From contig JAGFIZ010000121.1 of assembly GCA_024103135.1 (NCBI GenBank), forward strand, positions 1-32,205: a stretch of DNA of 32,205 nucleotides, written 5' to 3'. A model generated the notes under the pieces. It was not told the DNA's origin, did no database searches, and saw nothing but the letters and a program-made list of their open reading frames with translations. This document shows positions 23,417-27,420 of this stretch, one piece after another. Source of the stretch: Bradyrhizobiaceae bacterium (GTDB lineage: Bacteria; Bacteroidota; Ignavibacteria; Kapaibacteriales; Kapaibacteriaceae). How positions within the stretch are numbered: position 1 is the stretch's first letter; the number at the start of each line of letters is the position of its first letter. The translations under genes were made by a program, and so were the position numbers.

Positions 23417-25371
23417 CTCCTGACGTCAGCATCCTCATCGTCAACTACAACGTCAAAGACTACTTGCTGCAGTGCCTACGTAGTATCGAAGCAAGTTCTC
23501 CGGGTGTATCATACGAAGTAGTCGTTGTTGACAATGCGTCAGTAGACCAGTCAATTAGTGAACTCAAACCAGACTTCCCGACGGTTAACTGGATTCAGCT
23601 CGAAGAAAACGTCGGCTTTGGCCGAGGCAATAACCGTGGTCTAGAGGAATGTCGGGGCAGGTATGTTCTCTTCTTGAATCCTGATACCATCATTGCCCAG
23701 GATACCTTGGAGGCGATGGTGCGATTCATGGACGAACATGCCGACGTCGGCATGGCTGGATGCAAGGTGCTAAACCCGGATGGTACGTTTCAGCTGGCAT
23801 GCAGACGAGGTCTGCCCACACCTTGGGCATCATTCTGCAAGCTTTCTGGTCTGCAGTCACTTTTCCCAAAGAGCAAACTGTTTGCACGGTACAACCTCAC
23901 CTACCTGCCGATCGATGCGACGTATGAGGTCGACGTGCTCATCGGTGCCTTCATGATAGCACCTACGTCGTTAATGAAGGAACTCGGTGGTTTTGATCCG
24001 GATTTCTTCATGTATGGTGAAGACGTCGACCTCTGCTATCGTGTGAAGAAAGCCGGTAAGAAGGTCATGTACACCCATCAGACCAGTATCATCCACTTCA
24101 AGGGAGAGAGTACGCGGCGTAGCTCCATCAACGAAGTGAAGGTGTTCTATGATGCCATGGAAATCTTTGCACGGAAGCACTTTTCGCGCTCAAGACTGTT
24201 CCTGGCCATGATGAAGGCAGGCATCGTGGGGAGAGCGATGGTGGAACGGGTGCTGCGTCATGCAGGCAGCATTGTCATGATTGCTGCCGATATCCTGAGC
24301 ATACTCATTGCCTTACTATGCGCTACCGCCGTGCGATTCGACGGACCGTTCGGATTCCCACCCTATGCCTATCCGTTGGTGTTGTTTGTGGTTCCATTCG
24401 TCATCGTCATGTCGCTCATCAGCGTTGGCGAATACGTCGAGTACCGTCCAACCATTCGCCGATCAATCGTCGGCTTGCTCGTTGGATTCTTCTTCTTAAG
24501 TGCACTCACATACTTCTTTAAGGACTTCGCCTTTTCTCGGGGCGTAGTGCTGATGACGATAGGCTTCAGTGCCGTACTCATGTCCATTACTAGAGGACTT
24601 GCCTCGGCTTATCGAGGACTGCGCGGACGTGACCGAAGTCGGAACATCATCGTCGTCGGCAGGACGTCCCAGGCAGAGTCCATCATCAGATCTTTACGAC
24701 AGGCGGAACACCGAAAAGCCCATGTACTTGGCGTCGTCAGTGTTGATCCGTATAGCGACAGTACGTTTGCTCAAGCGCCAATCCTTGGTACCATGGCCGT
24801 GCTTGACCGCATTGTCAGGGATGTACATGCTGACGAGGTTATTCTCGCCGATGCATCCGTAAGCCGTGCCGAAGCCATGACAGTCATGCAACGCTGTGCC
24901 GGCACCGTATCGCGATTTCATATTGCAACCGAGTATTCCGATATCGTTACGGCGCGAATCATCAACGACGTTGCAGGTGTCGAGCCAACGGTTGCCTTAG
25001 CCCCCTTACAAACCTTTAGAAACCGGGTAATCAAGCGACTGTTTGACATCGTTTGTTCGCTGGTGGTGTTGCCATTTTCCGTATTGCGCCTATCTTTGGG
25101 TAGCACCAAGGCCCGCCAGGCATTTACGCGGTGGCTGTCGGTGCTAAGGGGAGACAGTAGCGTTGTCGGTCTTTACCCGGACGACAAACAGAGGCCTTGG
25201 AACAAGGTTGGTATACTGAGTTTGGTACAGCTTAGCGATCTGGCGCAACTTGACACACACGCTATTGAACAGCTTAACGACTATTACGTCGACTATTTCA
25301 CCATCGCCCTCGACGTAGACATTCTTTTTAAACATCTGATTGGTCAACAACGTGGCAAGTACGGTTCTTGA
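23413..25371 (+). CDS. GT2 glycosyltransferase fused to a degenerate WcaJ-like domain
   Basis: A 652-aa two-part protein. Residues 1-265 are a complete GT2 domain of the rhamnosyltransferase-like group: [37 protein letters not shown] (89-92), [17 protein letters not shown]. Residues 286-394 hold four membrane helices, 410-535 a Rossmann-like domain, and 536-650 a remnant of the phosphoglycosyltransferase core. This half has the same layout as the enzyme at 21303. In the core, KRLFDI (541-546) and [13 protein letters not shown] (574-586) are only 33 residues apart, against 93 in the intact enzyme; the SPGP, YKYRSM and Asp-Glu segments are gone. The start is GTG 23413, giving a GTGA overlap with the previous stop; an ATG at 23371 is less likely. 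The GT2 half should be active and the second half not. Confidence 0.88.
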
Positions 25372-26302
25372 TTTCGAAAAACCCATTGTGGAACTCGAAC
25401 AGAAGATCCAGGAAATGCGATCCCTGACCGATACGCTCGATATCCAACCACAGATCGAGCAACTAGAAGAGCAAGTTGAACGATTACGAGCTGACATCTA
25501 TCGTGACCTTACACGATGGCAGCGCGTGCAGATAGCCCGTCATCCAGACAGGCCGTATACACTTGACTACATTTCCCATTGCTTCGAGGATTTTCATCAA
25601 TTGCATGGTGATCGCGTTTTCCGTGACGACCCGGCAATCGTTGGAGGAATGGCCCGACTGAACGGTACCTCGGTCATGGTTATCGGTCATCAAAAAGGTC
25701 GGGATACCAAGACCAACCTCTACAGAAACTTCGGCATGCCAAATCCAGAGGGCTACCGAAAGGCCTATCGTCTGATGACGCTTGCCGAGAAGTTCGGCAT
25801 GCCAATCATCTGCTTCCTTGACACGCAGGGTGCCTACCCCGGGCTAGAGGCAGAAGAGCGAGGCCAGGCCGAAGCCATTGCAAAGAACCTCCTTCTCATG
25901 AGCGGTCTTCGAGTACCCATCATCATTTGTGTGATTGGGGAGGGGGCGTCAGGTGGCGCCTTGGGTATCGGCGTTGGCGACCGCATCCTCATGCTGGAGA
26001 ACGCCTGGTATTCCGTCATTGCTCCCGAGAGCTGCTCCTCGATTTTATGGCGTAGCTGGGAGTATAAGGAAACGGCAGCCGAAGCATTGAAGCTTACCGC
26101 TCCAGACCTGGTAAAGGTTGGAGTCGTTGATAGAATTGTTCCAGAACCCGTAGGTGGTGCACACCGAGACCCACAGACGATGTTCCAAACCATGCGTACG
26201 ACCTTGGTGGACGAGCTGGAGCAGCTTGCAGATAAGAGTGCTGACGAGATTGTGAACGATCGCCGTGCAAAGTTTTATGCCATGGGTGTCTGGACCGAAT
26301 AG
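25352..26302 (+). CDS. accA: Acetyl-CoA carboxylase carboxyltransferase, alpha subunit
   Basis: With AccD it transfers the carboxyl group from carboxybiotin to acetyl-CoA, giving malonyl-CoA for fatty-acid synthesis; cytosolic, 316 aa. An N-terminal helical region ([16 protein letters not shown], then coiled [14 protein letters not shown]) precedes the crotonase-fold domain, with [51 protein letters not shown] and [15 protein letters not shown], the oxyanion-hole glycines. There is no ATG near the family N-terminus. GTG 25352 gives [14 protein letters not shown] 25340 is the alternative. Either start overlaps the preceding gene (by 20 or 32 bp). accD is not in the window. Its place at the end of a polysaccharide operon is unusual, though linkage need not mean a functional link. 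Confidence 0.95.
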
Positions 26303-26322: not shown

Positions 26323-27420
26323 ATGCAACATCGCGGAAAAGACGACGACGACAGCCAGATTCGCTTCTTCGGAAGAGCCAAGAGCGATGACAAGGATTTA
26401 CCTATTGATAGGTACGGCAATCCTATTGGTCAACGTCAGCAAGGCTCGCCACGCGATGGAGGACGTAGCAGAAGCCGACACACAACAGGGCGTTATCACG
26501 GTGGTGTAGGGGGCGAACGTAGTCAGTACGATCGATCACGCAATGACGGTCGTGCTGACCGCCACAGAGACCAGCAAGGAGAACGTCGCTATCGAACACG
26601 GCGCTCTCAAGATGCCTCTCACAGACAAGGTCGGCAACGCACCTCAAATGCACCCGAGCAAACAAGTGTACTGGTCAAGGCGCTTGTTAGCTATCAGTTT
26701 GCATCACGATCGACCTCGGTCGCTGCCATACTTGCTGGACGGGTTACCGTGAATGATCAGGTGGTGACGAAACCCAATCAGGTTGTCTATCCAATGCGTG
26801 ATGTGCTGGCAGTGGATGGTCAGGTTCTGCTGAGGAAGTCGGTAAAGCCCATTACCATTGTCTTTCACAAGCCCAAGGGCTTGCCATCAAGTAGGGAAGA
26901 TGGTGTTGAAACGCTCTACTCATTCATCGCCAACAAGCGAGCCTGGTTCTTTCCAAAGGGTGGACTTCCAGCGTCGGCAAGCGGGATCGTGCTCATTTCA
27001 AACGACAAACGCCATCGCGTCACCTCAGAGAGTACGCTGGCAAAGCTTACCCATGATCTCTGGATAAAGGTTCCTGGCACTGTCAGTGATCAAGTTGTGG
27101 CAACTCTTCCATGCAGTGGGAGAATCGGTCAACAGAACGTGCGGACAACGTGGCTTGTTTTCGAGCGGACATCGTGCTCATTGCGTCAGTTATCCGTGAT
27201 GTTGAAGGCACTTGGGCTAGAGGTACTTGCATGGGAGCGCCGTAGAATAGGTCCGTTTGCAACCGATCAACTTCAGCCGGGTGCATGGTACCAATTGGAC
27301 GATCAGCAAGTGGTAGCCATCGATGAATTGGTGGAATCAGGAATTGCTGACGACACTCCGCTTGAGCAAGTATGGGAGTCCATCGCTCAGCGACTTAGGT
27401 CGAACCAAGATTCACACTAG
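26323..27420 (+). CDS. RluB/RsuA-family protein lacking the catalytic aspartate
   Basis: A 365-aa protein with three parts. Residues 1-112 are a low-complexity, Arg/Gly/Asp/Gln-rich tail, probably disordered and RNA-binding. An S4 domain spans about 115-170 (FASRSTSVAAILAGRVTVND). A pseudouridine-synthase-like domain spans about 175-345 (FHKPKGLPSSRED, WIKVPG, ERRRIGPF, LQPGAWYQL). The catalytic motif GRLDxxTSGLLLxTND aligns without gaps to GGLPASASGIVLISND (213-228): Arg becomes G214 and the catalytic Asp becomes P216 (codon CCA at 26968). It should therefore not make pseudouridine and may act as an rRNA-binding or assembly factor. The frame is intact, so this is not a decaying gene. It starts 20 bp after accA. 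Confidence 0.85.
   Translation: MQHRGKDDDDSQIRFFGRAKSDDKDLPIDRYGNPIGQRQQGSPRDGGRSRSRHTTGRYHGGVGGERSQYDRSRNDGRADRHRDQQGERRYRTRRSQDASHRQGRQRTSNAPEQTSVLVKALVSYQFASRSTSVAAILAGRVTVNDQVVTKPNQVVYPMRDVLAVDGQVLLRKSVKPITIVFHKPKGLPSSREDGVETLYSFIANKRAWFFPKGGLPASASGIVLISNDKRHRVTSESTLAKLTHDLWIKVPGTVSDQVVATLPCSGRIGQQNVRTTWLVFERTSCSLRQLSVMLKALGLEVLAWERRRIGPFATDQLQPGAWYQLDDQQVVAIDELVESGIADDTPLEQVWESIAQRLRSNQDSH

Follow-up and report, generated by a model that had tools for sequence, protein, structure and literature searches.

Probable pseudoenzymes descended from S4-domain pseudouridine synthases form a clade in the Kapaibacterium/Ignavibacteria lineage

Introduction

When a pseudouridine synthase homologue lacks the residues on which catalysis depends, is the change an error in the sequence, the decay of a single copy, or the lasting condition of a protein with another role? 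This question is raised by one gene in a stretch of 32,205 nucleotides, here called the window, from a draft assembly of 137 contigs. A preliminary description, made from the sequence alone, read the gene as a member of the RluB family in which the GRLD motif had become GGLP, and proposed that its product binds rRNA without modifying it. In Escherichia coli RluB, Asp110 is the catalytic residue and Arg194 belongs to motif III, and the R108A and Y140F variants show 0.6% and about 3% of wild-type activity, respectively (PMC3919597).

Results

Layout of the gene and fold of its product

The putative pseudo-pseudouridine synthase gene occupies positions 26323..27420 of the forward strand, starts with ATG and encodes 365 amino acids in a frame that is open throughout. 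It begins 20 bases after the stop codon of accA (acetyl-CoA carboxylase carboxyltransferase alpha; 25340..26302, forward strand), its conserved upstream neighbour, with which it probably shares one transcript. Residues 1-110 (26323..26652) form a low-complexity extension with 24 Arg, 15 Gly and 14 Asp and a net charge of +11; described earlier as an Arg/Gly-rich tail, this stretch in fact lies at the N-terminus. An S4 RNA-binding domain follows at residues 117-155 (26671..26787; Pfam PF01479, E 2e-6), so that both the open frame and the S4 domain of the preliminary description were recovered. The Pfam search that finds the S4 domain does not match PF00849 in the 365-residue protein.

The region at 26839..27300 nevertheless resembles a pseudouridine synthase domain, without the catalytic residues, when its structure is predicted (AlphaFold2 mean pLDDT 89; VIA Z 16.3 to RluF 2gml and 15.5 to RluB 4lab). 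The model has a mean pLDDT of 89.3 and a pTM of 0.83, and its best matches among solved structures are RluF, RluB, RluE and RsuA, with VIA Z of 15-16; the catalytic domain alone superimposes on solved structures with an rmsd of 2.6-3.6 A over about 150-160 residues. As modelled, then, the protein keeps the pseudouridine synthase fold, and this fold together with an N-terminal S4 domain marks it as a homologue within the RsuA/RluB/RluE/RluF superfamily.

The active site of the window copy

At motif II (residues 213-216; 26959..26970), the window copy reads GGLP for GRLD. Gly214 corresponds to the base-flipping Arg (RluB Arg108) and Pro216 to the catalytic Asp (RluB Asp110), columns that are 100% Arg and 100% Asp in 38 canonical relatives, exactly as the first reading of the motif had it. 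Two further features of an active S4-type synthase are also gone: Leu246 (27058..27060) stands at motif IIa in place of the active-site Tyr, the counterpart of RluB Tyr140, and alignment with canonical enzymes places SCSLRQLSV (27172..27198) at motif III, where EG[KR]NRxxRR is expected. The preliminary description had taken the C-terminal motifs to be kept; this holds for the R-x-G-P...G-x-W end and fails for motif III. The residue aligned to RluB Arg194 happens to be Arg in the window copy and varies across the clade. The S4 Arg beside an invariant Ser is present here, with Pro or His in its place in families f9 and f5, a variation that counts against the role proposed below. Judged by these residues, it is very probable that the window protein makes no pseudouridine.

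Orthologues across the order

A protein search of 60 relatives and a profile search (threshold E 1e-60 or better) of 123 genomes of the order, here the Kapaibacterium/Ignavibacteria lineage, together recovered orthologues from nine of the ten families in the first sample, and the profile search placed them in 51 genomes; those relatives that carry names are Ignavibacteria and Candidatus Kapaibacterium MAGs, and the comparison genomes are MAG assemblies. In the members of families f1, f3, f5, f6, f7, f8 and f9 that were sampled, accA precedes the gene, mostly as its immediate neighbour and otherwise a few genes away, a conserved place that suggests co-transcription. Family f2, genus g3 and the sister species G005 lack the gene, which is therefore not essential everywhere.

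The catalytic Asp is absent from 45 of 50 distinct orthologue sequences, and ten different residues replace it: T (13), E (10), L (5), P (4), S (3), G (3), N (2), R (2), A (2) and V (1). On the tree, this column requires 16 changes within the clade and is invariant in the canonical rows except for the RluB of family f5. A sequencing or assembly error at the motif might be suspected in a draft of 137 contigs, and the earlier note had named both such an error and orthologues that keep Asp as findings that would overturn it. Asp is missing from this gene in dozens of independent genomes, however, and the frame is open and unshifted; GGLP is therefore neither a sequencing error nor a one-off mutation, and we regard the chance of an artefact as negligible. 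A viral origin was also considered and set aside, as a search of viral contigs found no relative.

The other active-site features are lost to differing degrees. The base-flipping Arg is kept in 20 orthologues and absent from 30, the active-site Tyr is kept in 41 of 50, and an intact motif III was found in none of the 50. Thirteen columns that are at least 90% identical in canonical relatives vary in the clade, and most of these are the motif II Arg and Asp and motif III positions; Lys249, Glu300 and Trp322 are invariant in the clade and specific to it. Aligned in this way, the residues lost from the clade are centred on the active site.

Could the protein be a synthase that still works with an altered active site? 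The fold is kept, and Asp remains in five orthologues, four as GCLD and the fifth (G471) as GRLD; a few orthologues, in f9 and f7, have both Asp and Tyr. Such residues, Asp in 5 and Tyr in 41 orthologues, leave a slight chance of some activity in parts of the clade, although every orthologue is without motif III. The ten other residues at the Asp column, hydrophobic ones included, argue against continued activity, as do the disappearance of motif III from 50 of 50 sequences and the joint loss of Asp, Arg and Tyr from the window copy, and we consider a still-active enzyme very improbable.

Relationship to RsuA, RluF and RluB

In one quick tree, a branch with SH-aLRT 98 separates the order clade from the rest, and the true RluB of the same genome (L003/L101) falls in a separate clade. 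Over the full length, the family matches the profiles of RsuA (1.8e-26), RluF (2.6e-23) and RluB (4e-17), in that order. Against NCBIfam models, it scores 43 bits for RsuA, whose cut-off is 275, and 18.8 bits for the RluB equivalog, whose cut-off of 290 marks RluB proper (23S U2605). By profile, the window family is thus nearer to RsuA and RluF than to RluB, and the tree does not decide between RsuA-like and RluF-like descent. Together, the profile scores and the tree rule out the RluB label that the window protein had been given.

With RsuA, RluF, RluB and RluE (E. coli RsuA 1ksk, RluF 3dh3, RluB 4lab/4lgt), the family shares an S4 domain followed by the synthase fold, as well as the Lys of the K-P motif and the G-x-L, ND and R-x-G landmarks. 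It differs from them in that no part of motif III is conserved and neither is the Arg or the Asp of GRLD, in its own invariant Lys249, Glu300 and Trp322, and in its long basic N-terminal extension.

Selection on the core

Pairwise NG86 estimates of dN/dS on the core, between orthologues of related genera, gave 0.025 for the closest pair (L024/L028; dS 0.41) and 0.04-0.14 among members of genera g9 and g11, for which dS often approaches saturation. Orthologues in related genera are under purifying selection.

The N-terminal extension

Orthologues, too, have RGG/QG-rich extensions at the N-terminus, and these vary in length. In family f1, the extension is unalignable apart from two short motifs. 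The first, DDDDSQIRFFG in the window copy (26341..26373), recurs as EDDDSQLKFFG and close variants in other f1 members; a motif like [ED]DDDSQ[LIT][KR]FFG is present in seven of eight members, and the eighth (L011) has a shorter DDQSAFFG. The second, ERRYRTRRS (26581..26607), resembles RTFRSRG[DE]R in f1 relatives.

A similar gene in a second order

In four genomes of family f13, which belongs to another order of the same class, there is a gene with GRLT and RG-rich extensions and without motif III; among 294 genomes of the class that were searched, only these four had this form. In the three f13 genomes whose flank matched accA, accA lies directly upstream. The f13 and order-clade profiles match at 6.1e-40 over 228 columns, and the two groups share a branch with SH-aLRT 96 that may be helped by long branches. 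As sequence-based signs of kinship, the position by accA and the profile match are better arguments than the joint branch. An f13 pair has dN/dS of 0.064 (dS 0.57). We also observed that, in the f13 relatives L057, L058, L060 and L061, low-complexity extensions rich in RG/RD flank the core at either end and reach up to about 300-400 residues.

Conservation of place next to accA across two orders, together with the retained S4 domain and basic extension, might indicate an RNA-binding regulator of the gene's own operon, acting for instance on the accA message and unrelated to the ribosome. Nothing ties the protein to accA mRNA, and accA stays put in genomes that lack the gene; we therefore judge such a regulator improbable.

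The window copy within its genus

Relatives of the same genus differ widely at this site. In G003, the syntenic gene is full length, with GALV at motif II. The window copy has lost about 13 residues, and the Tyr and the Arg as well; alignment with orthologues places the deletion around Pro263-Cys264 (27108..27114). At the same site, the frame of G002 is open and has neither the extension nor most of the catalytic half, and that of G004, also open, has diverged strongly; in both remnants the S4 start remains, as does the C-terminal R-x-GP...S-W...VW end. G005 and the four genomes of genus g3 that were examined have accA and no relative after it in the flank that was read, and the whole-genome profile search at 1e-60 likewise found none in g3. 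Between accA and an ABC transporter, G005 has a 127-residue ORF (L137, 2546-2926, reverse complement). The shrinkage and the absence from a sister species imply that some of the clade can do without the function of the gene. Set beside its relatives, the window copy is reduced; its genus is losing the gene, and this copy may itself be on its way out.

It is therefore pertinent to ask whether the window copy is a relic: the pseudoenzyme would have a role in other parts of the clade, would be decaying in this genus and would have little or no function in this species. The series fits such a history, as it starts with the full-length gene of G003, passes through the window copy to remnant or diverged forms (G002, G004) and ends with none (G005), and the branch of the window row, at 0.78, is among the longer ones of its family. 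Yet all 365 codons are open, the short motifs of the N-terminus and the S4 domain can still be recognised, and the codon-position G+C of the core is like that of neighbouring genes; the remnants of G002 and G004, too, have open frames with an S4 start and a C-terminal end. A relic is an unlikely explanation, albeit one that deserves more weight than an operon regulator.

Other pseudouridine synthases of the genome

The genome encodes four intact synthases: two of RluA type, one RluE-like protein (GRLDYDSEG) and one RluB. The last (G000:C51, L101), with GRLDRNTTG and EGRNREVRR, is the second, intact RluB that the preliminary description had advised looking for, and with the three other synthases it rules out the window protein as the sole RluB of the genome. 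The two proteins are alike in their S4 and synthase architecture and in having a basic, repetitive N-terminal extension; unlike the window protein, RluB has all catalytic motifs intact and belongs to a separate clade.

Several observations concern the canonical enzymes themselves. Before its S4 domain, L101 has tandem [STA]PRSDERR repeats, where the protein of G005 (L100) has TGGSRP repeats. In genus g11 (f5), the canonical RluB reads GRLE in L117, L124 and L127 and GRLD in L123, L125 and L126; Asp has thus become Glu in 3 of 6 genomes, motif III is decayed in 5 of 6, and dN/dS is still about 0.04-0.12. From these sequences, the canonical RluB of g11 seems to be losing its active site. In genomes G026, G048 and G058, both the RluB orthologue and the window-family paralogue lack Asp.

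Discussion

We consider it reasonably probable that the window protein belongs to a clade-wide family of pseudoenzymes derived from S4-domain synthases, which bind RNA, most likely rRNA during ribosome assembly, and that the window copy is a further reduced member. To this extent, the earlier suggestion of an S4/RsuA superfamily member that is probably without catalytic activity is supported, and the protein is conserved as such across the order. The ancestor would have been a pseudouridine synthase of the RsuA/RluB/RluE/RluF type. With the catalytic Asp, the base-flipping Arg and motif III no longer conserved, the making of pseudouridine would have been lost. From the S4 domain, the fold and the basic extension we infer that the window protein binds RNA, and the S4 domain, what remains of the cleft and the N-terminal extension may together hold an RNA stem-loop. 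That this RNA would be rRNA, and the role one in assembly, is a further step suggested by the fold, the S4 domain and the precedent of RPUSD3.

Human RPUSD3 is the nearest precedent. In this protein, the catalytic Asp is replaced by Gly, and no activity on rRNA or tRNA is detectable (PMC12716993). A review places it in a 16S mt-rRNA module, and when this module is lost, mitochondrial translation is impaired (PMC8067846). Like the window family, RPUSD3 is a paralogue of an active synthase that has lost its catalytic Asp, and it is associated with large-subunit rRNA (PMC8067846). Unlike the window clade, which is bacterial, of RsuA type and also without motif III, RPUSD3 is eukaryotic, belongs to the RluA family and represents an independent loss. 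The literature searched, which left out most subscription journals, held no bacterial precedent for a synthase without Asp, and that gap in coverage makes this negative weak evidence of novelty.

A more ambitious account can be offered tentatively, with rather less confidence than the pseudoenzyme reading itself. Perhaps an rRNA enzyme became a non-catalytic ribosome-assembly or RNA-chaperone protein, gained an extension with short motifs, was kept by accA in two orders and was discarded several times. The family would then be a bacterial counterpart of mitochondrial RPUSD3, with intermediates that run from enzyme-like forms to a remnant.

A second role, as RNA chaperones and separate from catalysis, has long been suspected for pseudouridine synthases. 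In this family, catalysis has seemingly been abandoned and the fold is under purifying selection, so that a chaperone-type role could be studied alone. The clade also holds a natural series, in which Asp is kept, Asp is lost, the catalytic half is lost and finally the gene is lost, and this series could be used to ask what portion of the protein remains necessary.
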